Positions 5,937 through 36,902 of a DNA stretch of 44,189 bases are shown one piece after another. Below the pieces are notes generated by a model, which worked only from the letters and a program-made list of their open reading frames with translations, had not been told where the DNA came from and did no database searches. Origin of the DNA: a virus; IMG/VR virus record IMGVR_UViG_3300039098_000208, positions 1 to 44,189 of that record; one strand, given 5' to 3'. Made by a program: the position numbers and the translations under genes. Position 1 is the stretch's first letter. Each line of letters begins with the position of its first letter.

Positions 5937-6944
5937 ATGCCGGAATTCATTACAATTGACGACGGTTTCGGAGTATCCGAGTTGACCGCCGCGATCAATG
6001 TACAAGAAAACAAGTACGGCCTCATGGAAAGTATGAATTTGTTTCCAGAAAAAGGTGTGTACACCCGAACAATTTCTATCGAAGAGAAGAATGGTGTCCT
6101 TACAATTCTGCCCACAGCCCCTCTTGGTGGACCGCCTACGGTTACCACAAGTGGTGGACGTCAAATAAGGAGCTTTGTTATCCCCCATGTGCCTCACGAG
6201 GGTGTCCTGCTGCCGGAAGAGTATGCCAATGTGCGTGCGTTTGGTACGGCGGCCCCCATGGCTGGTGTAAGCGAAGTGATTAATGACAAGCTTGCAGAGT
6301 ATAAGGCAAAGCTTGCGATTACCCTTGAATATCATCGTTGTGGTGCCCTGGCAGGCGAGATTCTTGATGCAGACGGTTCTGTGATTTACAATCTGTTCAC
6401 TGAATCGGGCGTCGCAGAATTCGACCAGGACTTCAAGTTTTCCGTTGCTGGTACCGATATACCTGCCGCTTGCCGTTCAGTGCGTCGGCATATCAAAAAG
6501 AGCCTTAAGGGTGAGATCATGACAGGCGTTGTGGGTATCGCGGATGCCGATTTTATGGATAAGCTTCGTGCGCATCCCACGGTCAAGGAATGGTTTGTGA
6601 ATCATCCCGGTGCAGTGGCTTATGGTCAAGCCGATGAGGACGATGCTATATTTATTGGCGGTATCAAGTTCATTGAATACGTCGGTGAATCAGCAAATGC
6701 TGCTGGGGTTGCGAAGCCCTTTATCGCAGCAGATACATGTCGCTTTGCCCCTATAGGTACGGGTGCCATGAGTACCAGTGTGGCTCCAGGTGACTTTACC
6801 GAAACTATTGGGACTAAGGGCAAGCTCATGTATGCAAAGATGGTTGAGCGCAAATTTAATCGTGGATACGATATTCACGTACAGATGAATGCTTTGCCAT
6901 GGTGCAATAGACCCGCAGTGCTCGCAAAGGGTAGTTGCAGCTAA
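5937..6944 (+). CDS. Major capsid protein (lambda gpE family)
   Basis: 335 aa with a very strong ribosome binding site (AAGGAGG). Lambda gpE is 341 aa. N-terminal features of the family are visible: YTRTISIEEKNGVLTILPT and RSFVIPHVPHEGVLLPEEY, then the E-loop/P-domain region and a basic C-terminal MVERKFNRGYDIHVQMNALP with the usual LPWCNRP ending. Codon use is somewhat richer in G/C than in neighbouring genes, as expected for a highly expressed gene. Confidence 0.95.
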   Translation: MPEFITIDDGFGVSELTAAINVQENKYGLMESMNLFPEKGVYTRTISIEEKNGVLTILPTAPLGGPPTVTTSGGRQIRSFVIPHVPHEGVLLPEEYANVRAFGTAAPMAGVSEVINDKLAEYKAKLAITLEYHRCGALAGEILDADGSVIYNLFTESGVAEFDQDFKFSVAGTDIPAACRSVRRHIKKSLKGEIMTGVVGIADADFMDKLRAHPTVKEWFVNHPGAVAYGQADEDDAIFIGGIKFIEYVGESANAAGVAKPFIAADTCRFAPIGTGAMSTSVAPGDFTETIGTKGKLMYAKMVERKFNRGYDIHVQMNALPWCNRPAVLAKGSCS

Positions 6945-6973
6945 TCAATAATGAGTATTGCATGTAAATAAGT

Positions 6974-7010
6974 GTGTAGCTAGTACGATAATACGTTGTG
7001 CTAGCTACAC
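6974..7010 (+). terminator. Hairpin after the major capsid gene
   Basis: A perfect 10-bp inverted repeat GTGTAGCTAG / CTAGCTACAC (6974-6983 and 7001-7010) with a 17-base loop, 30 bases after the capsid stop. No U-run follows, so it is more likely a partial terminator or 3'-end stabiliser that lowers expression of downstream connector genes than a full stop. Confidence 0.5.
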
Positions 7011-7057
7011 AAATTGATTGTTGTAGTAAGAATCAATTAAGGGGTACTGATATCGCT

Positions 7058-8335
7058 ATGGGAAACTATATCAATAAAGCATTGGATATATTGTATTCAG
7101 ATCGTTTTCTCGGCGAATATTCAAAGAATGTTGTTTATACCCCAAAGGGCAAGCCCGGTATCGATCTCAGGGCCTTAGTCTTATCTGAAGATCCCACTTT
7201 ACAAGAAGAAGTTATTGGTGATGCTGAAATTTTTGAAATAAGGTATTCTGAATTAAATGCGAAGCCTCGAAAAGGTGATACAATTTCCATTGGTGCGGCG
7301 CAAGATGGATCTGCTATCTGGCAAATTAAGTCAGAAATCGAGGATCAAATTGAGATTAAGTCGCTGTGTGCGTTTGAAGATTATCTTTATGCGGGTAGTG
7401 CTGATGATGGAAAAGTTTACAGGTCAAATAATGCTATAAACTGGGAAACGGTTTTCGATTCAGCGAAGACATCAACGGATGCAATGTGCGTGTATGGGGG
7501 TGCATTGTATATTGCTCAGTCAGTTCCTGGTGAAATCTTGAGAACGGAAAATGGAACTGATTGGGAATCCGTATATCAAGGGTTGCCGGGTATCTTCGAT
7601 TCCGGGTATCGGTTTTGCGAATTCGATGGATATTTGTACATGAGTACACTCGATTCACCTGCGCAAATAGGACAGGAGATCAATCTGTATCGATCTGCAA
7701 CCGGGGATGCGGGAACGTGGTTATCAAGCCATATGTATATATCCAATGGCTATGACGGGGGAGCTATCAAGGAATTTAAAGGATATTTATACTACCTTCT
7801 TGGTGATATTCCTGCAACGAGACCAATGTTAGCAAGATCGTTAGATGGGGTGAGCTTTACGCCATCTTATCTAGCGTGGAATATTTCCGACATAGAAGAG
7901 TGTAATGAATACTTGTATTTTGTTACGGAAACTAATTCAGTTTATCGATCTAGTGATGGTGTTTCGTGGGGGTCCGGTACAAGGATTATACCATATGTTA
8001 CTTTTGGTCACGTTCAATTTTCAATGTATCAGGACGAATTGTATTGTAGTATTCCCGGAGACTCATTATCTTTGGAGTATGGTGGAATATTTAAAACCAG
8101 CGATGGATTGTTATGGATACAAGAATTAAGTAAAACACACAAAACTTTTGAGCCATCATCGCTTGCAATATTAAAAAACAATCTTTACACAGCCATACGT
8201 GTTTATAATAATTATAGTGAACCGGTTAAGATTTATGAAAAGGGTTACACCGTACACCATGTGACCGGTGTTCGTGGTGGGATTGCGCAGGGAACGTGGA
8301 TTATTAATACAAGCAAATCCTTTTATCGGTATTAA
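7058..8335 (+). CDS. FII-like head-tail connector interrupted by a six-bladed beta-propeller
   Basis: 425 aa from ATG 7058 (AAGGGG upstream, rather long spacing; a GTG start at 6998 is possible but sits in a hairpin). Residues 1-83 resemble the lambda FII connector, ending in the strand PRKGDTISIGA. Residues ~84-395 are a beta-propeller with six repeats of roughly 50 residues carrying RSNNAINW, RTENGTDW, RSATGDAGTW, RSLDGVSF, RSSDGVSW and KTSDGLLW. The last ~30 residues (YTVHHVTGVRGG, GTWIIN) look like the remaining strands of FII, so the propeller appears inserted in a hairpin loop of the connector. The gene lies exactly where FII lies in lambda. The propeller is homologous to that at 9448. 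The FII assignment is inference from order and short motifs. Confidence 0.7.
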   Translation: MGNYINKALDILYSDRFLGEYSKNVVYTPKGKPGIDLRALVLSEDPTLQEEVIGDAEIFEIRYSELNAKPRKGDTISIGAAQDGSAIWQIKSEIEDQIEIKSLCAFEDYLYAGSADDGKVYRSNNAINWETVFDSAKTSTDAMCVYGGALYIAQSVPGEILRTENGTDWESVYQGLPGIFDSGYRFCEFDGYLYMSTLDSPAQIGQEINLYRSATGDAGTWLSSHMYISNGYDGGAIKEFKGYLYYLLGDIPATRPMLARSLDGVSFTPSYLAWNISDIEECNEYLYFVTETNSVYRSSDGVSWGSGTRIIPYVTFGHVQFSMYQDELYCSIPGDSLSLEYGGIFKTSDGLLWIQELSKTHKTFEPSSLAILKNNLYTAIRVYNNYSEPVKIYEKGYTVHHVTGVRGGIAQGTWIINTSKSFYRY

Positions 8336-8336
8336 A

Positions 8337-8918
8337 ATGTTACAATTTTCAGCAAAAATTCTAAAAGGTTACCTTAAAACTGTTGAAGGCGTTGACAAAC
8401 AACTCACCGGTGCTGTTCTTACCGGATTGCGAAAAGAAGGGTATCGAATATACAAAGAGACAAAAGATGGATTGATATCTGGTAATTTGGGTTTAAGGAA
8501 TCGGGTTACATATAAAAATAAATTAATTATAGGTAAAAGGAAAAGGGATAAAAGATTTAAACGTCAAGTAAGTGCAAGTAAACCATTATTACGTTTACAT
8601 CAAGGAGTTTTATATAAAGTTGATAAAGAGAGGCTCAAGGTTCGTATCGGTTTTCTGGGTGAAGGATGGAAGATGACCAATTGGCGTAACCTCGCGCTTG
8701 ACCATGCTGATGGATACAGTTTTAATCCCTCAAAAAATTATCGAAATTCTTTACACCGACGAGGAATACATCTTCGTAAATCAACAATGAGTATAAAAGT
8801 TCCACGACGATGGATCATGGGTGCAGTGATGCAGGGAAATAAAAATGATAAGATTGCATACAATGTGAAAAGACAATTTGAACTTAGAATGAAAGGGTAT
8901 GCAGGATATAAATCATGA
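8337..8918 (+). CDS. Minor tail protein Z-like
   Basis: 193 aa, starting 1 base after the connector stop. The protein is very basic (many KR pairs, e.g. IIGKRKRDKRFKRQ), helical at its N-terminus (VDKQLTGAVLTGLRKEGYRIYKETKDGL) and has the RHVP-like ending seen in gpZ/HK97 gp10-type tail-completion proteins (STMSIKVPRRWIMGAVMQ). Position between FII and U analogues is the main support. Its likely role is in joining or completing the tail at its head-proximal end. Confidence 0.65.
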   Translation: MLQFSAKILKGYLKTVEGVDKQLTGAVLTGLRKEGYRIYKETKDGLISGNLGLRNRVTYKNKLIIGKRKRDKRFKRQVSASKPLLRLHQGVLYKVDKERLKVRIGFLGEGWKMTNWRNLALDHADGYSFNPSKNYRNSLHRRGIHLRKSTMSIKVPRRWIMGAVMQGNKNDKIAYNVKRQFELRMKGYAGYKS

Positions 8919-9334
8919 GAGACTTAATGCTTGCAATTCAGGATCGATTGGATACGTTGAATTACTCTACGTACATAGCTATTGATGAAGCTATCCTGCC
9001 GTTCGGAATAACTTTCCCGGCAATTGGTATAAAGGATGGTGCGGTATCCCGAAAAGAGTGCATGGGAAACAGATTAGATGAAACCGATGATATTATTTTA
9101 TATATATCAGTGGATGTATCAAAAAATGATATATTGACAAGCGAAAATGGTTTGTTAAGTATTGTTGAAGAAATACATACTATTCTTGATGAATACTTAC
9201 TCGCAAATTGCGGAGACATAGAATCAGCATTTTGTCGAAGCGAAGAAGGAAGTGTACCTGTTCAGTACGATGATTTTGTTTTACAGCAGAAAACTCTTGT
9301 TTACGAATATCAGAGACAAGTCAATAGACCATAA
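8915..9334 (+). CDS. Tail terminator U-like
   Basis: 139 aa, overlapping the Z-like gene by 4 bases (ATGA). Lambda gpU is 131 aa and caps the tail tube, fixing tail length. The pattern of an N-terminal helix (MRDLMLAIQDRLDTLNYS), several strands, and a central helix (LLSIVEEIHTILDEYLL) fits this family. The assignment is mostly from synteny: FII, Z, U, V order is conserved. Confidence 0.65.
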   Translation: MRDLMLAIQDRLDTLNYSTYIAIDEAILPFGITFPAIGIKDGAVSRKECMGNRLDETDDIILYISVDVSKNDILTSENGLLSIVEEIHTILDEYLLANCGDIESAFCRSEEGSVPVQYDDFVLQQKTLVYEYQRQVNRP

Positions 9335-9350
9335 TAATGATTTATAGATT

Positions 9351-9404
9351 TATTTTTTACTGTAATTTTCAATATAATGATATAATAAAAAACAGTAAAA
9401 AATA
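9351..9404 (+). promoter_or_regulatory. Hairpin and possible promoter before the tail tube gene
   Basis: A perfect 13-bp inverted repeat, TATTTTTTACTGT / ACAGTAAAAAATA (9351-9363, 9392-9404), with a 28-base loop that contains two TATAAT boxes (9373-9378, 9381-9386). It may act as a weak terminator for the upstream genes with a new promoter for the abundant tail tube protein. The -35 regions are poor, so the promoter is tentative. Confidence 0.4.
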
Positions 9405-9447
9405 ATAAAATAGTATACTGTTGAGTAGTTGAGAAAGGGAAGTAATT

Positions 9448-11604
9448 ATGGCATGGGAATATATATCTGAAATTGTAGGAGAGACCAATAGTGTTTCTGC
9501 TATCTGTGAATTCAAGGGTAATCTCTATGCTGGCAGTATGCTACACGGTGAGATATATAGGACATCAGACGGAATATCATGGAATGAAGTTTACAAATCT
9601 GATCAAGATGTTGTATGGGATTTATATGTTTATAACAATTATTTGTATGCTTCCTATCAAAACAATGGTGTAGTGGTTCGGACAATTGATGGAATTACCT
9701 GGGAGCAAGTAATGGATCTCGCAATAAGATTATTTAGATTTTGCGAATTCAATAATCATCTTTATATCGGGGAAGGCAGTAGTGGATTACTTGCAAGATC
9801 GGAAACTGGTGCTACTGGTACGTGGAGTACTTGTCATGATTTTACTGAAGGAAAAGCAAAAGCATTAGAAGTGTTCAATAATGAACTCTGGGCTTCGCTT
9901 GATTCAAAAATCTATAAATCCGCCAACGGAACGGATTGGGTATTACAAGATAGCACAATACCCAATGACGGCTCCTTATACGCAGATCTTAAGACATTCA
10001 AAGGGTATCTATATCTCCTTAACGGGATCGGGGAGATATATCGTTCAAATGGAGCCGGGTGGATCAAGGTTCGGGCGGGTCTTGTAAGTGAATCGTCATA
10101 CGAGCTTGCAATTTTTGACGATGAATTATATGCAACTATTGGAACTACAAATGATACTGATGGAATTTATAAAACTAATAATGGTACTGTGTGGGTAAAA
10201 GATTTTTCACTCATCACAGAGCCGAAGGGAATGGGCACCTTCGGATATCAATTGTATGTTGGAGTCAAAAATATATTAAGCACTAAATTTTATTATATTT
10301 ACATAGATCCACCTGAGGAGGTAGAGGTAATGAGAAGCGCGAGAGCAAAGAAAAATATGGTAGCTGTGTCAGCTAACACAATGGAAACAGGAATTAATGT
10401 GGACCAGGTGACCGACACTGCCATAATGGTAGCAGTAACGGATATGGCGGATATTACTCATCGGCGAGAAAATAATGTTGATGAATTAACTGGTAAAGAG
10501 GAAGCAGATGTTATCTATGCGCTCGGCGGGACATCTGCTATGGCATGGACGTTTAAGCGAGCACAACCACAACACTTTGCAATTTTGTATGCTTACGGTT
10601 TTGGTAACATTGTAAGTAGTGATCTGGTTGGCGGAGGAAGGCTGCACACAATCAAACCGATTGACGGTGACCTGCAACTGCTTCGCTCCAACCCGACAAT
10701 GACACTAGTCTTTCGAGAAGGCGACGTGATTGATTACGCAAAGTATACATCCATGGCGGTTGAATCCGTAACGTCTACATTTCGCAAGGATGATTGGGTG
10801 TCGGTTAATGGAAGCCTTGTTGGCACTGGTAAACATGAATTACTTTCCTACCAGGAGACAGTAGTTGATGCAGAAGACACCACAGAATTGACCGTAGTGG
10901 ATGGAACCATAAACGGTTCTGATTCCGCTAGCAGGGCGGATAATATTCATCAGGTACGAATGCAGGAAAGTACTGGTGAGTGGAGTGAGATTGGTGTAAC
11001 CGGGTCGTCCTCGGATACAACAATTCAGATCATCGCTGGTGGTGCAGGCATCGAGGACAGGACATTCAAAATCATTTATCTTCGTGGTGGTCAAACGTGG
11101 ACCGCGGAAAGAGATATGGTTTACGAGAGTCCCTTGCGAGTTTCCGAAGTCGAAGTTAATCTTGGCGGGAAGTGGAATGGTACTGAGTTTGTTGGTGGTA
11201 AGACTATCAGTAATCAGATTTCCGATATTACTCATACGGTAACCAACGGATTCGCAGTTGAATTCCTCCCGGGTGCTGGGGGTAATTTTGCAAGCAGGAT
11301 ATTCCGGCCTGCAAGAACCCAGACACTCACGTTAAACCGTGAGTTGCGAGACGCAATTATAAAGCATTACGCTAACACTGTTGAGTATTTTGGCGTTAAA
11401 ATTGTGGCAACTGGTGCGGCAATTAGCGCTACGGAAAATTATTCCGTAACTCTGATCTTTCCTCGTTGCGGGATACTCGATAATAAGGTTTCCGTTGACG
11501 GTCAAAGAATAAATGAGGCTGGTGACCTGTCCGTTCTCGAGGATGCTACTTACGGTTCCGCGATAGTATTGGTACAGAATGAAATAGCGACCTACGCAGC
11601 ATAG
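9448..11604 (+). CDS. Beta-propeller fused to the major tail tube protein (V-like)
   Basis: 718 aa. Residues 1-~285 form a six-bladed propeller with RTSDGISW, RTIDGITW, RSETGATGTW, KSANGTDW, RSNGAGW and KTNNGTVW. It is clearly homologous to the propeller of 7058-8335 (ICEFKGNLYAGS versus LCAFEDYLYAGS; RFCEFNNHLYIG versus RFCEFDGYLYMS). From residue ~295 the protein is a tail tube protein (VDELTGKEEADVIYALGG, FKRAQPQHFAILYAYGFG), beta-rich as expected for a gpV-type tube. Start ATG 9448 has a good AAGGGAAG. A strong internal ribosome binding site separates the two parts, so both the long form and the tube alone are probably made. The gene sits where V sits in lambda. Confidence 0.85.
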   Translation: MAWEYISEIVGETNSVSAICEFKGNLYAGSMLHGEIYRTSDGISWNEVYKSDQDVVWDLYVYNNYLYASYQNNGVVVRTIDGITWEQVMDLAIRLFRFCEFNNHLYIGEGSSGLLARSETGATGTWSTCHDFTEGKAKALEVFNNELWASLDSKIYKSANGTDWVLQDSTIPNDGSLYADLKTFKGYLYLLNGIGEIYRSNGAGWIKVRAGLVSESSYELAIFDDELYATIGTTNDTDGIYKTNNGTVWVKDFSLITEPKGMGTFGYQLYVGVKNILSTKFYYIYIDPPEEVEVMRSARAKKNMVAVSANTMETGINVDQVTDTAIMVAVTDMADITHRRENNVDELTGKEEADVIYALGGTSAMAWTFKRAQPQHFAILYAYGFGNIVSSDLVGGGRLHTIKPIDGDLQLLRSNPTMTLVFREGDVIDYAKYTSMAVESVTSTFRKDDWVSVNGSLVGTGKHELLSYQETVVDAEDTTELTVVDGTINGSDSASRADNIHQVRMQESTGEWSEIGVTGSSSDTTIQIIAGGAGIEDRTFKIIYLRGGQTWTAERDMVYESPLRVSEVEVNLGGKWNGTEFVGGKTISNQISDITHTVTNGFAVEFLPGAGGNFASRIFRPARTQTLTLNRELRDAIIKHYANTVEYFGVKIVATGAAISATENYSVTLIFPRCGILDNKVSVDGQRINEAGDLSVLEDATYGSAIVLVQNEIATYAA
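10330..11604 (+). CDS. Tail tube protein, short form from internal start
   Basis: ATG 10330 (MRSARAKKN) is in frame with the propeller-tube gene and preceded by GAGGAGGT (10315-10322) with 7-base spacing, a stronger ribosome binding site than that of the long form. The 424-aa product starts exactly at the tube domain. Tube subunits are needed in hundreds of copies, so I infer that the short form is the bulk subunit and the long form is a minority decorated subunit. Only the sequence signals are seen; the protein ratio is inference. Confidence 0.75.
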   Translation: MRSARAKKNMVAVSANTMETGINVDQVTDTAIMVAVTDMADITHRRENNVDELTGKEEADVIYALGGTSAMAWTFKRAQPQHFAILYAYGFGNIVSSDLVGGGRLHTIKPIDGDLQLLRSNPTMTLVFREGDVIDYAKYTSMAVESVTSTFRKDDWVSVNGSLVGTGKHELLSYQETVVDAEDTTELTVVDGTINGSDSASRADNIHQVRMQESTGEWSEIGVTGSSSDTTIQIIAGGAGIEDRTFKIIYLRGGQTWTAERDMVYESPLRVSEVEVNLGGKWNGTEFVGGKTISNQISDITHTVTNGFAVEFLPGAGGNFASRIFRPARTQTLTLNRELRDAIIKHYANTVEYFGVKIVATGAAISATENYSVTLIFPRCGILDNKVSVDGQRINEAGDLSVLEDATYGSAIVLVQNEIATYAA

Positions 11605-16138: not shown

Positions 16139-18652
16139 ATGGCTACCAAATTTATTACATCCCCAGCTTGGCCGGATGATTGTATTGTGGATATATCATC
16201 GCTTTCCGGTATGAATATGCTACCCGTTAGACATGGATCTGGGAATACCGGAAGCTATGTGCCGGCCCCTGTAGTTGAAAATGCTACCAAGAAGGTTACC
16301 GGTATAGTGACCGCAACCGGTTCTACCCTACAGATCATCGATACAGAACGACTGAAATCATTTGGAAACAATCAATTAAAAGACATAATAATTCTGATAA
16401 CATCCGGGAATTGCAATGGCGAAAAGAAAATAATAGCAAGCAATACGTTATCAACGGGAACGCTTGTTGTTGATTCTGCGTTTTCTCAAGTACTAGCTAT
16501 TGGTGATACTTACGAGATAGTTACATACATACAGGATGTATCAGAATATAAACTTGAAATTACTGATGGCAATTCGACTGGGCAAACAGGTCCAGAATAC
16601 GCAGCTTTTAAGTATTCGCGCGACGACGGAGTAACATACTATGGCGCTAAGGACATCAATGAAGCAAACTGGGATTCCAGGCTTACGGTTAACAATACAA
16701 TAAAGCAAGGCTCATCTGTTGTGTCTTGTCAGACATCAAATGGGGACCTGATCACGCTATATCAAAACAATAGTGATAGTATAGTTAAAAAGAAAATCAG
16801 CAATGATTGGGGTAAATGTAATTTTAGTGCTGCATCAAATTTTTTCGGGACACTTGAGGGTACGCCAAAAGATATGATTCTATTGAATAATGGACACGTG
16901 CTCGCGGTTATCGAAACTGCTGCGCAGGGAAATGAATTGTTCGCAGTAACAAAGACATATCGCTCGCTAGATCACGGCGCGACATGGGCACTTCGTAGCG
17001 CTTACGCCATAAATAGTTTCAGGCAGCTTGACAATGGAAATATTATCGGCGTTTATACATATAACAAAGCAACTGGAACGTCTTTTTTGTACTGTGCATT
17101 TTCATCGGATGAGGGAGCGAGCTGGGGGTCAATCGAAACCATTGAGTCCTCCTCCGATAATCATTATTATAATCCGGTTGTAAGATTTAAAACTTTTGAA
17201 AATCCGACGTACGGGAATGAAGCAGTGGTGTATGAACAAAAAGTTATAGCAACCAGTGCTAGATCTTTACGGCGAGCAAGGCGAGTATTTGGAGGCTGGC
17301 TAACAGATGAGATACAAAGTGGCGATTGTTTCTATCCTTGCTTGGTCGAGAGATGGAATGGGTACCTTGGACTTTTTTATGTCGATAACGCAAATACATT
17401 ATGGTACACTCAGGAATGGCCGTCACAACCATGGAGTACCAGGGTGAGTATAATTTCCGATGCGGTGAATGGCGTTTCGTGGCCGCATGCTTGCCGATGC
17501 GATGGACATTTCATAATTTGTAATTACAATGCTGGTACTGCAAACGACGCCATTCAAATGAAGCATGGACAGCTACAAGTCGGTCAAACTAAAATCTGGT
17601 TATCGAGAACCCCTGATTTTTGTCCGATATACCCACAAGTTAAAATTCACTGGACCGGCGGTAACGCTGTTGTTGGAGATACATTTGAAATCGAATTTGA
17701 ATTCTTGTATACCGGTGAATCGATTTACAAGGCAACCCCACAAATGCCTTGGAGATCTGCAACTGATGAATCTGATGAATTTATTGTTTTAGATGCAAAC
17801 GGATACCATATTGATGGTATATTGGTGATGAATACTAATGTGCGAACATTAAAATTCGAGGCAAATGATATTGATAACTGGTCAAATCCTGTTGTGTCCT
17901 GTGAATTAAAGATGGATAAATTCAATGGTGAAGTGATTAGTGACGCCGCTCATGGTGGAAACCCCGGAACTCCTAATACTTACAAGATTGAATTCGATGA
18001 AACAATGATTGATCATAAATATATTGATTACTGTTTAATGATTACTTCCGGGGTACATAACGGTGTATCTGTTGAAATACTTGATAACACTGAATGCCAA
18101 GATGGAACCGGCACATGGATATACTTTAACAGTGCATCGAGCCTAACCCTTGCCGTTGGCACCACGGTAACATTGCTGGAAAAAAATAGAGCCTTTACCG
18201 GTATGGTCGGGAAACCTTGTAAGTATATCCGAATTGCCATTCCATCACAAAAAACGCCCCACGGGTACTATCAGTTAGCGTCACTGCTTGGCTACACTAC
18301 AATACTGCCGATTGGATTTCAAGTTGGATATAGTCATACTTTAAATCAGAATCTATCGTTTCTTGGTTCCAACAATACTCCGGTTGTGGACGGCGAGCCC
18401 CGGCGGGAATTCTCGTTAACATTTGATTATCTTAATGGCGATGAAAACAACTTGACCGCAACGGCAAATTATCTGCGAGGCAAGAAGTTTTGTTTTATCC
18501 CATTCGGACACAATCATGATGTCCCCGTTGCGGCCCCGGATACACCTGAGGAGCTTGCTGCATACCTCGTTCGCATGATTAATAATGTAGATCAAAATCA
18601 CCATGCAAGAAATTGGATGACTGGATCTATTAAACTCGTGGAAAGCAACTAA
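16139..18652 (+). CDS. Distal tail protein with sialidase-like beta-propeller
   Basis: 837 aa just after the tape measure, where tail-tip proteins lie. Residues ~155-510 carry sialidase-type Asp-boxes: SRDDGVTY (near 160), SLDHGATW (near 276) and SSDEGASW (near 322), in the classical SxDxGxxW spacing. The flanks look structural. The C-terminal ~110 residues (EPRREFSLTFDYLNGDENN, LRGKKFCFIPFGH) resemble the folding core of distal tail proteins. I infer a tail-tip protein with an inserted glycan-binding or glycan-cleaving propeller. A catalytic sialidase is not shown, because I cannot confirm the arginine triad. The propeller is of a different type from those at 7058 and 9448. Confidence 0.65.
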   Translation: MATKFITSPAWPDDCIVDISSLSGMNMLPVRHGSGNTGSYVPAPVVENATKKVTGIVTATGSTLQIIDTERLKSFGNNQLKDIIILITSGNCNGEKKIIASNTLSTGTLVVDSAFSQVLAIGDTYEIVTYIQDVSEYKLEITDGNSTGQTGPEYAAFKYSRDDGVTYYGAKDINEANWDSRLTVNNTIKQGSSVVSCQTSNGDLITLYQNNSDSIVKKKISNDWGKCNFSAASNFFGTLEGTPKDMILLNNGHVLAVIETAAQGNELFAVTKTYRSLDHGATWALRSAYAINSFRQLDNGNIIGVYTYNKATGTSFLYCAFSSDEGASWGSIETIESSSDNHYYNPVVRFKTFENPTYGNEAVVYEQKVIATSARSLRRARRVFGGWLTDEIQSGDCFYPCLVERWNGYLGLFYVDNANTLWYTQEWPSQPWSTRVSIISDAVNGVSWPHACRCDGHFIICNYNAGTANDAIQMKHGQLQVGQTKIWLSRTPDFCPIYPQVKIHWTGGNAVVGDTFEIEFEFLYTGESIYKATPQMPWRSATDESDEFIVLDANGYHIDGILVMNTNVRTLKFEANDIDNWSNPVVSCELKMDKFNGEVISDAAHGGNPGTPNTYKIEFDETMIDHKYIDYCLMITSGVHNGVSVEILDNTECQDGTGTWIYFNSASSLTLAVGTTVTLLEKNRAFTGMVGKPCKYIRIAIPSQKTPHGYYQLASLLGYTTILPIGFQVGYSHTLNQNLSFLGSNNTPVVDGEPRREFSLTFDYLNGDENNLTATANYLRGKKFCFIPFGHNHDVPVAAPDTPEELAAYLVRMINNVDQNHHARNWMTGSIKLVESN

Positions 18653-28887: not shown

Positions 28888-29718
28888 TTATTCACCCCCT
28901 TTTGTTTTCTTGTTTCTTGCCATATTAACAAGCTTCTCAATATGTAAAACTCCGGTCAGTTTTTTTCTGACTCCTGAGTACTTACTTAGAAACGTTCCTG
29001 GTGGATCAATTAATTCCCCATCATTATCATACATTTCACCAGCAAAAGAAATGTATGGTGGATATTTTTTGTTTCCATCCTTGTCAAGTCTATCAAACAC
29101 GTATCCGATGAGATCAAAGTACTGGGTTACGTTCTTGGGAAACATGCGTCCACCAAGTAACGGGGCCGAATCGTAAAGTAGAGCCCACGACGGTCTTGTT
29201 TCAACGAGACAGATACAAACAATGGTCTTGCCCGAATTAACGTATTGAGTCAGTAGTTCCTGTATACGCATCATCTGGGACGCAAGAGCACCGTAGCCCT
29301 CCTCACCGGACTTAGATTGGTAGACCAAGCTCTTAACCTTGGCTTTTTTCTGGGTCTTCGATGAGTCCATATAACCCTGATACGCTTGTTCGTTGATTTC
29401 TTGGATAAGCAAAACTGTGCTCAGATATGTATAGGAATCCATAACGATTGTTTTGTATTCCGCAAATTCCTTTGTGTCCGCAAGCAACTCTTTTAAGGAA
29501 TTACAATCTTCGTATTCATATACATTACCATCAATATTATCAATTCCAAGCGCATCCATTGTCATACCAAGAGATCTGCGTTCAGTTTTGATGTAAGCCA
29601 CTGGTTTTTCACAGGTGGCCAAAATGTTAGTTGTTTTCCCAACATCGGTTTTCCCGTAAACGAGAATCGAGCAACCGGAACCGTCTTTCTTGAATTTTTC
29701 AAATGATACTTTTTTCAT
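28888..29718 (-). CDS. Sak4-type RecA-like ATPase
   Basis: 276 aa. Walker A YGKTDVGKTT (residues 21-30) and Walker B TIVMDSYTYL (90-99) of the phage AAA_24/Sak4 family. These are single-domain RecA/Rad51 relatives that stimulate strand annealing during phage recombination, usually together with a phage SSB, which is the next gene here. The region LVYQSKSGEEGYGALASQMM corresponds to the sensor area of the family. Confidence 0.88.
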   Translation of the reverse strand: MKKVSFEKFKKDGSGCSILVYGKTDVGKTTNILATCEKPVAYIKTERRSLGMTMDALGIDNIDGNVYEYEDCNSLKELLADTKEFAEYKTIVMDSYTYLSTVLLIQEINEQAYQGYMDSSKTQKKAKVKSLVYQSKSGEEGYGALASQMMRIQELLTQYVNSGKTIVCICLVETRPSWALLYDSAPLLGGRMFPKNVTQYFDLIGYVFDRLDKDGNKKYPPYISFAGEMYDNDGELIDPPGTFLSKYSGVRKKLTGVLHIEKLVNMARNKKTKGGE

Positions 29719-32000: not shown

Positions 32001-32678
32001 TTATACTGTAATAATTCTGGGTCTCGGTTTCTTGATTCGTCCAGTTGCGAGAGATTCCTTAACTTTATTTCGTCTCCGTTTCATCCCCTTTGATTTCTCG
32101 AGAGAAGATTTTTTATCAAATTTATTGTATCTAAAAAATTTCGTTGCGGTTGTTAGGATGTATTTCCTGCACGCATCTCTATTGTTCGAGATATATACAT
32201 GGATTCCAAAACGGGTTTGTAGACTCATAAGGAAACCATACACACAGGCAGGTTTAATTCTAGTGTATCGGGAACCGTGCATGATATCATCCTCAGATGC
32301 TTCTATCAATAAGCATGCAAAGCAATGATTAGCCATTTCATCAATTTTATCAATAGTATGATTCTTATCAACTACAAGCGTATAAAGGTCTGAGATTTTC
32401 TTTCGTTCGATTGTATAGCGCTCGACAAAGCCATCAATGGAATAATCGCCGGTTCTTAAAACATGTTTCGCAAGCGGGATGCCCGGTGTTAATTTTTCGG
32501 AAAATAATGGTTGCTGTTCATTCGGGTCAACAATCAGTTTAAATCCATCTGGTATCTTAATGGTGTCTATCGGGTACAATGATTTGTTTGTAACGATTAT
32601 AGGGGTAGATTCGTTACTGTTTTGTGATTGCGTCTTGCTTGTCTTCGCGCCTATGCCGGCACTTCGCTTTAAATTCAT
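32001..32678 (-). CDS. ERCC4-type nuclease
   Basis: 225 aa, first gene of the leftward operon. ERCC4/XPF nuclease core: LIVDPNEQQP (D51, E54), TGDYS (77-81) and the signature ERKKISDL (91-98), followed by LLIEA and the helical end. No helix-hairpin-helix is visible. Such stand-alone ERCC4 proteins occur in phages and probably cut branched or flap DNA. The last ~40 residues are very basic (KGMKRRRNKVKE; RIKKPRPR), suited to DNA binding. Confidence 0.88.
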   Translation of the reverse strand: MNLKRSAGIGAKTSKTQSQNSNESTPIIVTNKSLYPIDTIKIPDGFKLIVDPNEQQPLFSEKLTPGIPLAKHVLRTGDYSIDGFVERYTIERKKISDLYTLVVDKNHTIDKIDEMANHCFACLLIEASEDDIMHGSRYTRIKPACVYGFLMSLQTRFGIHVYISNNRDACRKYILTTATKFFRYNKFDKKSSLEKSKGMKRRRNKVKESLATGRIKKPRPRIITV

Positions 32679-35366: not shown

Positions 35367-36902
35367 ATGTTTATCGATTATAAAAATCATTTCAGTAAAT
35401 TTTCAGACAAGGAATTGCGACCCCAACAAGACGCGGCACTTGATTTTCTCGACAAAGCTGAGACATCAATCAAGATCTTGCGGGCCGGGACCGGAGTTGG
35501 AAAGTCGTTAATTGGTACTTGCTACGGGATTCAGAGCTCCAGGTTCCTGTATTTAGTTGGCACAAAATACCTTCAAGATCAAATGGTTGAAAGTTTTCCG
35601 GAAATCTCAACTATTAAGGGTAAGTCAAACTATCCGTGTATCCGGTACCCTGGTTTAAATTGCGATGATTGTCCTCCGGGGGTTATGCAATGCAAAATAA
35701 AACAGGATTGTGTTTATCAAAAAGAACGTAATAAATTTTTCAACAATCCCTACAAGTTAACCAACTATCCGTATTTCTTAGGTGAAGTTAACAACATCGG
35801 AAAGCTAAAAACACAAACGATTATCGCTGATGAAGCAGATCAACTTGAAGAAATGCTGTATTCGTATTTATCATTGAAATTTTCACAATCAATTATTTCA
35901 CAGTTTAAGCTTAGCGATCCCGCACGAAAAACGGCTACCTCGAAACAGGGGATAAATCCATGGCTGGAATGGGCAGAGAACGTCAAGGCAACTATTACAC
36001 CGGCCCATTCTCATGCAGTGGCTCGGGCCAAGGGGTCAACTGATATACAGTTACTGAAACGAGAAAAGTATCTGCGTAGTATTCTCGGAAAAATTAATCT
36101 TTTTCTCGAAATAGTGGATGAGAATTGGATATACGAACGCAATCAAACCGGAATGACATTTCAGCCAGTTTGGCTAAACCCGACAATAACAAAAATGTTA
36201 TTCTGGGATCACGCTGAGCAATTCTTATTGTTATCCGCAACCTTTCCAACGATAAAGGTGTTAACTCACACACTCGGTCTCACTTCGAGTCAGATAACTT
36301 TGGGTGAAATCGAAACGCCTTTTCCCGCAGAGCAGAGACCTGTGATATTAACAAATTCAGCGAACATGGTTTATACGGAACTGGATAAAGAGACCCCAAA
36401 GTTATTACGGGATATAAAAAAGATCCTTACGCGCCATAAAAAACAAAAAGGGATCATACATTCAGTATCGTACAAGCTGAATCAAGCTATTATGAGTATC
36501 GGGGACAAGAGATTGATTACCCATGAAGCAGCTAACAAGTATGATGTACTTAATAAATTTCAGTATTCTAATGAACCCCTAGTCTTCGTGTCGCCTTCTT
36601 CTGGAAGGGGCCTGGATTTGCCTTATGATTCATGTCGCTTTTCGATAGTAGCAAAAGCGCCGTATAAGTCATTGGCATCCAAGTTAATTAAGCAGAGATT
36701 GTACTCTGAAAATATTGGTTCATATTGGTACAAATCAATAACCGCTCAGGAAATCGAGCAGATGGCCGGGCGAGGCATGAGAAGCATGGATGATAGTTGC
36801 GTTACGTACATTATGGATCGTCAAGCTTGTCAATTGATATCCCGAAAGCGCAAATTGTTTTCAAGGGGTTTCCTGGAGAGCTTGGATGTTGAGAGATTAT
36901 AA
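35367..36902 (+). CDS. XPD/DinG-type superfamily 2 helicase with iron-sulphur cysteines
   Basis: 511 aa. Motif I AGTGVGKSL (40-48), motif Ia-like YLVGTKYLQDQM, DEAD box IIADEAD (152-158), and C-terminal motifs LLSATFPT, VSPSSGRGLDLP (V) and QMAGRGMRS (VI). Cys91, 99, 102, 109 and 115 between motifs Ia and II match the place of the 4Fe-4S cluster in XPD and DinG, which open DNA in the 5'-3' direction. It is the only helicase I see and probably serves replication or recombination. The start has only a weak ribosome binding site (GGAA). Confidence 0.9.
   Translation: MFIDYKNHFSKFSDKELRPQQDAALDFLDKAETSIKILRAGTGVGKSLIGTCYGIQSSRFLYLVGTKYLQDQMVESFPEISTIKGKSNYPCIRYPGLNCDDCPPGVMQCKIKQDCVYQKERNKFFNNPYKLTNYPYFLGEVNNIGKLKTQTIIADEADQLEEMLYSYLSLKFSQSIISQFKLSDPARKTATSKQGINPWLEWAENVKATITPAHSHAVARAKGSTDIQLLKREKYLRSILGKINLFLEIVDENWIYERNQTGMTFQPVWLNPTITKMLFWDHAEQFLLLSATFPTIKVLTHTLGLTSSQITLGEIETPFPAEQRPVILTNSANMVYTELDKETPKLLRDIKKILTRHKKQKGIIHSVSYKLNQAIMSIGDKRLITHEAANKYDVLNKFQYSNEPLVFVSPSSGRGLDLPYDSCRFSIVAKAPYKSLASKLIKQRLYSENIGSYWYKSITAQEIEQMAGRGMRSMDDSCVTYIMDRQACQLISRKRKLFSRGFLESLDVERL

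Follow-up and report, generated by a model that had tools for sequence, protein, structure and literature searches.

An internal start inside a propeller–tail-tube fusion, and a homologous propeller in the putative joining protein, of a metagenome-derived virus

How might a phage add a bulky module to the protein that builds its tail tube and still keep the plain subunit? The question is raised by virus record IMGVR_UViG_3300039098_000208, a single metagenome-derived record whose 44,189 nucleotides (nt), hereafter the window, supply all coordinates given here. Within it, gene P0002 encodes a beta-propeller (propeller B) fused ahead of a tail-tube domain, and a second propeller (propeller A) is joined to a domain resembling the head-tail joining protein FII in gene P0001. 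We consider it probable, though by no means assured, that P0002 is one gene for two tube proteins: a major, plain form of 424 amino acids (aa) and a minor, 718-aa form that carries the propeller on the tail.

Two propellers of one lineage

BLASTP aligns residues 88 to 381 of P0001 with residues 3 to 274 of P0002 (93.6 bits, E = 1e-24, 27% identity and 46% positives in 299 aligned columns); P0002 as query against all six frames of the record recovers the P0001 stretch at 4.8e-24. The local alignment score of 264 compares with 39 ± 6 (maximum, 60) in 300 residue shuffles. A first-pass annotation of this DNA had reported two similar stretches of ~290 residues and named their pairwise alignment as a test: the similarity is confirmed, over ~290 to 310 residues, and the alignment is significant on both counts. 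Since repeats may resemble one another blade by blade, both propellers were cut into seven blades and all blade pairs were scored. The summed score is 293 in register versus 126 to 153 for the six rotations, the identity assignment ranks 14th of 5,040, and the irregular third blades pair best with each other (score, 66.5), bearing out the earlier remark that this oddity is shared. Because the blades match in register, the likeness exceeds what shared Asp-box repeats would give, and the propellers are, on this comparison, homologous along their whole length and of one lineage. No similarity remains between the two coding stretches at the DNA level, where the best matches are of 16 nt. The six motifs counted earlier in each copy require some latitude: the strict pattern [RKS][STE]x[DNT]Gxx[WF] yields four per copy, and six are reached with degenerate forms such as RSNNAINW, RSATGDAGTW, and RSNGAGW, such that A and B each hold four strict and two degenerate Asp-box (S/T-x-D/N-G-x-x-W) repeats.

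The fold of copy A was modeled with AlphaFold2, with the P0002 propeller as the sole other row of the alignment. The model is a closed propeller over residues 87 to 396, with a predicted local distance difference test score (pLDDT) mostly of 55 to 90 across the block, in which a strand at the N-terminal side (residues 87 to 94) closes blade seven. Copy A is accordingly modeled as a seven-bladed propeller of the Asp-box type, the blade count being read from the model's strand list, and not as the six-bladed one first proposed. Its fold matches in the PDB are propellers, including YCF48 (TM-score [TMt], 0.64) and virginiamycin B lyase (TMt, 0.71); those in BFVD include many proteins of uncultured phages, some of which are named DUF6242. 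The DUF6242 profile (PF19755) itself scores A at 32 bits (cut-off, 29) across just 44 residues and gives no match to B. The FII-like residues 1 to 86 of P0001 fall below pLDDT 50, and the last 29 residues are likewise of low confidence. P0002 was modeled with relatives of its tube domain, leaving propeller B with no aligned partner because a joint alignment kept misaligning, and the model falls below pLDDT 50 over residues 1 to 300. Structure prediction thus returns a propeller for A; copy B presumably shares the fold, judging by its homology to A.

The gene of P0001 is the first after that of the major capsid protein E (PF03864) and lies ahead of the U-like and tube genes. Its N-terminal domain matches Pfam PF05354 (Phage_attach) at 18.2 bits (cut-off, 26) and NCBIfam tail_join_FII at 15.9 bits (cut-off, 25), with a weak PHROG match in addition. 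The proposed FII-like connector therefore has gene order and weak matches in its favor but misses the curated cut-offs; the domain is probably like lambda gpFII, and we call it FII-like rather than a member of the family. The short tail that follows propeller A is possibly the last strand of the FII fold, which would make A an insertion: when the flanks were joined and compared with a profile of eight FII homologues, the FII score rose slightly, from 4.4 to 4.8 bits up to 9.2 bits. One candidate FII relative (L159) turned out to be an AraC-type regulator.

A tube domain that keeps its own start

Residues ~300 to 718 of P0002 match the tail tubes of P74-26, DT57C, T5, and SH-Ab15497 in Foldseek (E = 1.4e-6 to 4e-5). 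On the strength of these fold matches, a genuine tail-tube domain of the two-domain pb6/P74-26 type stands behind propeller B and would assemble into trimeric rings. The gene is followed by G-like and T-like genes and a tape measure gene (PHROG 3779), and its relatives have the same neighbors. All of 103 distinct relatives begin their tube protein at the position that corresponds to M295 in the window, with no N-terminal extension in any of them; the open frames upstream span at most 49 codons, and none holds an ATG by which the protein could be lengthened. With the best-scoring ATG, GTG, or TTG taken no more than a few codons from the expected position, the Shine-Dalgarno sequence (SD) is at least as strong as −6 kcal/mol in 99% of these relatives (median, −10.8). 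A two-row propeller profile found no propeller in their available flanks. Viral contigs are one source of these relatives; the named sources are mostly genomes of Desulfobacterota, plus one Candidatus Brocadia, which is no more than suggestive of the host. Three of them are longer than the usual ~425 aa, at 488 to 510 aa (L022 2561-4084, L034 ~6803-8308, and L035 9001-10464); the alignment of L022 has an internal insertion between the two halves of the tube protein, perhaps an extra domain.

The window has retained this start inside the fusion. Directly upstream of ATG 10330 lies the sequence AGGAGGT, and the pairing energy with the anti-SD (−13.4 kcal/mol) ranks second among 483 ATGs (positions ~30 to 20,400), surpassed only by the capsid start (−13.5). 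The two top ranks thus go to the capsid and tube starts, as would be expected, and the latter lies within the fusion gene. At 9448, where the fusion begins, the SD is weak (−6.0 kcal/mol). If the upstream peptide were encoded with other synonymous codons, an SD as strong as the internal one would arise in only about 6% of cases. The propeller frame runs uninterrupted over the whole junction, which rules out a programmed frameshift there, and the homology of B to A extends to about residue 288, ~20 nt ahead of the tube start. In P74-26, the top fold match, structure and simulations show that the tube protein's Met1 and the residues next to it lie within the ring interface and gate assembly (PMC10034513). 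By analogy, a free N terminus is to be expected for most subunits, a 294-residue load on all of them would be unlikely, and a mixed or capped tail is likelier.

These observations can be drawn together in the following proposal. A propeller would have come to lie ahead of, and in frame with, an intact tube gene that kept its start codon and SD. Initiation at ATG 10330 would give an abundant 424-aa protein that builds most rings, and initiation at ATG 9448 a scarce 718-aa protein with the same C terminus that takes some ring positions and holds its propeller outside the tail. Together with the P0001 copy, propellers would then be displayed at the neck and at scattered sites along the tail, where their putative role, most likely, would be to bind a glycan or protein of the host surface or environment and so aid reversible adsorption. 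Use of both starts, presence of the long form in virions, the outward position of the propeller, and any binding are all predicted, the last by analogy; the common binding surface that the first-pass annotation placed at the neck and along the tail is likewise hypothetical. The proposal taken whole (dual in-frame starts yielding plain and N-terminally decorated tube proteins, the same propeller lineage in the joining protein, and a dose set by the two ribosome-binding sites) is one on which we are evenly balanced.

Several points weigh against the two-product reading. SD strength predicts initiation only roughly; a relative with the same fusion was not found, leaving the fusion itself without support from conservation; and a single-base error near 10310 to 10330 could have fused two genes, given that the other two frames contain stops nearby (at 10304, 10314, 10322, and 10328). 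The last point leads to an alternative that we regard as unlikely: the fusion would be a sequencing or assembly artifact or a recent private mutation, and the propeller would normally be its own product, such as an accessory protein or a loose decoration, whose gene stops just ahead of that of the tube. The tube relatives, which are separate genes with their own SDs, agree with this, as do the stops within 10304 to 10331 and the status of the record as one virus contig with no second example of the fusion found. Yet the frame is open across the junction and the homology to A reaches to within ~20 nt of it, which lowers the risk of a sequencing error without removing it, and copy A is likewise joined to a virion gene, such that a fusion of module and virion gene occurs twice in this genome. 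At the other extreme, the 718-aa form could be the real tube protein, with the internal SD a relic and every subunit carrying a propeller, as decoration along the tail had initially implied. Nothing interrupts the long frame, which has a plausible, if weaker, SD of its own, and phages with built-in Ig domains do have wholly decorated tails (T5 pb6; PMC8718954). Nevertheless, the ancestral start of the tube domain is retained, with a ribosome-binding site (10316-10332) that is one of the two strongest in the structural region, and the P74-26 tube N terminus is buried (PMC10034513), so coverage of the whole tail is quite improbable. We give similarly little credence to a position-specific long form, in which the bulky N terminus blocks ring stacking and the protein sits as a cap at one end of the tube or defines its first ring, whether at neck or tip. 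It would suit the control that the P74-26 N terminus exerts over socket opening and ring assembly (PMC10034513) and the place of the FII-like copy at the head-tail joint, but the extended tube proteins of other phages are mixed along the tail. The reading that we prefer thus remains that of two products from one gene.

How two propellers came to reside in one genome is a separate matter, and either origin is compatible with a dual start. A and B are mutual best matches (94 bits, versus no more than 49 bits for any propeller found in 395 genomes from the phylum of one tail relative's host), which makes the copying within the genome that the first-pass annotation proposed plausible and indeed likely; if so, it was old. 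Common lineage thus stands, but 27% identity with no DNA similarity leaves an old duplication inseparable from two acquisitions of one family. Separate acquisition from one wider family, for which the same divergence and the abundance of this broad propeller type in phages speak, is possible though doubtful, in that A and B, odd third blade included, match each other best by a wide margin among the sequences searched. The matching boundaries once invoked do not hold up: only the propeller's own ends match, with A following, or sitting inside, the FII-like domain and B preceding the tube. Nor does the common W-Q-I-K-S-E-I boundary inform on the direction of copying, because that strand also closes the propeller. 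The step in GC content over the propeller–tube junction (0.375 versus 0.461) agrees with later addition but is not decisive, since the whole 7.0- to 10.3-kb block is low in GC. Elsewhere, propeller relatives were scarce. The 395 genomes gave weak matches in 16, in standalone or multirepeat proteins, and a plasmid search gave just weak partial ones. INPHARED phages gave none by tblastn up to E = 1, and IMG/VR gave no close relative of either propeller, in scans (single-sequence and two-row alignment) restricted to short exact patterns that sample propellers thinly. In one cellular genome, a propeller-like protein is split over two overlapping frames (L038 663-2499), possibly by a frameshift in that genome.

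Genomic setting

The structural genes are ordered terminase, portal, protease, D-like decoration protein, E capsid protein, P0001, a Z-position gene, a U-position gene, and P0002 (Table 1). Beyond P0002 and the G-like, T-like, and tape measure genes lie an 837-aa tail gene, another tail gene, and a cell wall hydrolase. Family matches support the names E, D (below cut-off), tape measure, and hydrolase; portal, protease, Z, U, G, and T are named from gene position and resemblance only. The 837-aa product (16139-18652) has BNR/Asp-box repeats at residues ~158 to 410 (PF13088, E = 7e-4, below cut-off) and may contain a third propeller, as far as its repeats go, although BLAST detects no similarity to A or B.

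Two neighboring hairpins occupy 6973 to 7038, in the gap between the capsid and FII-like genes (folding z = −4.4), and may be a terminator or an expression damper; the hairpin at 6973 to 7011, which possibly reduces expression downstream of the capsid gene, lacks a clean U tract in its tail. The inverted repeat ahead of P0002 has an ordinary folding energy (z = −0.8). Farther along is a replication and recombination module with a Sak4-like annealing protein (28888-29718, minus strand), an ERCC4-type nuclease (32001-32678, minus strand), and a DNA helicase (35367-36902, plus strand). Neither the capsid protein nor the terminase, used as scan queries, turned up a near relative of the phage.

Table 1. 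Coordinates of the features discussed
Feature	Position	Strand	Remarks
Major capsid protein E	5937..6944	+	PF03864, E = 8.7e-83; SD −13.5 kcal/mol
Hairpin between capsid gene and P0001 gene	6973..7011	+	17-pair stem
P0001	7058-8335	+	425 aa; FII-like domain joined to propeller A
FII-like (head-tail joining) N-terminal domain	7058..7318	+	P0001 residues 1-87
Propeller A	7319..8245	+	P0001 residues 88-396; seven predicted blades
C-terminal tail after propeller A, with stop	8246..8335	+	ends GGIAQGTWIINTSKSFYRY
AT-rich inverted repeat	9350..9405		in 113-nt gap preceding P0002 gene; 26-nt arms, 81% complementary
P0002	9448-11604	+	718 aa; propeller B fused ahead of tail-tube domain
Propeller B	9448..10311	+	P0002 residues 1-288; in-register homology to A, E = 1e-24
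Internal SD, AGGAGGT	10316..10322	+	7 nt before ATG 10330, inside propeller–tube reading frame
Tail-tube domain, M295-A718, with own conserved start	10330..11604	+	predicted separate 424-aa product

Parallels in other phages and significance

Ribosomal frameshifting is a known route by which phages mix decorated and plain tail subunits. In SPP1, the plain tube protein gp17.1 and the extended gp17.1* are mixed 3:1, the extended form being the minority (PMC8718954, PMC7666168). The window is predicted to resemble SPP1 in combining plain and minority extended tube proteins in one tail; however, the SPP1 extension is a C-terminal FN3 domain produced by ribosomal frameshift, whereas that of the window is an N-terminal propeller produced by a predicted dual start. 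The first-pass annotation's statement that no described phage has such an arrangement needs qualification, as lactococcal 936 phages have carbohydrate-binding modules (CBMs) in both neck and tail proteins: the CBMs of these siphophages reside in the neck passage structure, MTP-TpeX, and Dit, two of the modules have been shown to bind hosts, and some members have two forms of the major tail protein (MTP) (PMC6669499). The window shares with them modules of a binding type (putative here) on a neck protein and the major tail protein, but in 936 phages the extension is C-terminal, made by programmed frameshift, and has BppA-like CBM folds, as opposed to an N-terminal seven-bladed propeller and an in-frame internal start; moreover, unlike those of 936 phages, the neck and tail modules of the window are clearly homologous copies. 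By analogy, the window tube protein may work like the dual-form tail proteins of SPP1 and 936 phages, while belonging to neither.

Other systems share single elements with the window. The best fold matches of its tube domain are the trimeric two-domain tubes of T5 pb6, DT57C, and P74-26; pb6 bears an additional C-terminal Ig domain and the P74-26 protein nothing further, and a propeller is present in neither. Phage DUF6242/Asp-box propellers and T7 gp17 have the propeller fold, although the T7 gp17 propeller is at the tip of a fiber and the descriptions of the named BFVD matches mention neither tube nor joining proteins. The nearest counterpart to the predicted pair of products is found in two-polypeptide phage endolysin genes, in which an internal ribosome-binding site yields in-frame products with a common C terminus (PMC9430671); the window would be like them in making two in-frame products from one gene, but these are lysis enzymes rather than virion parts.

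If the two-product reading is true, the locus would represent a new route to tails of mixed subunits. It suggests an evolutionary path simpler than frameshifting: a module is dropped in frame upstream of a tube gene, leaving the tube start unharmed, and the phage would keep its essential plain subunit while displaying the new module at low dose. The genome also shows the reuse of one propeller lineage in two virion proteins. The proposal makes testable predictions about the two products, their ratio, and their location at neck and tail. It also offers a caution for annotation, in that anyone who accepts the long frame as it stands will miss the true start of the tube protein.

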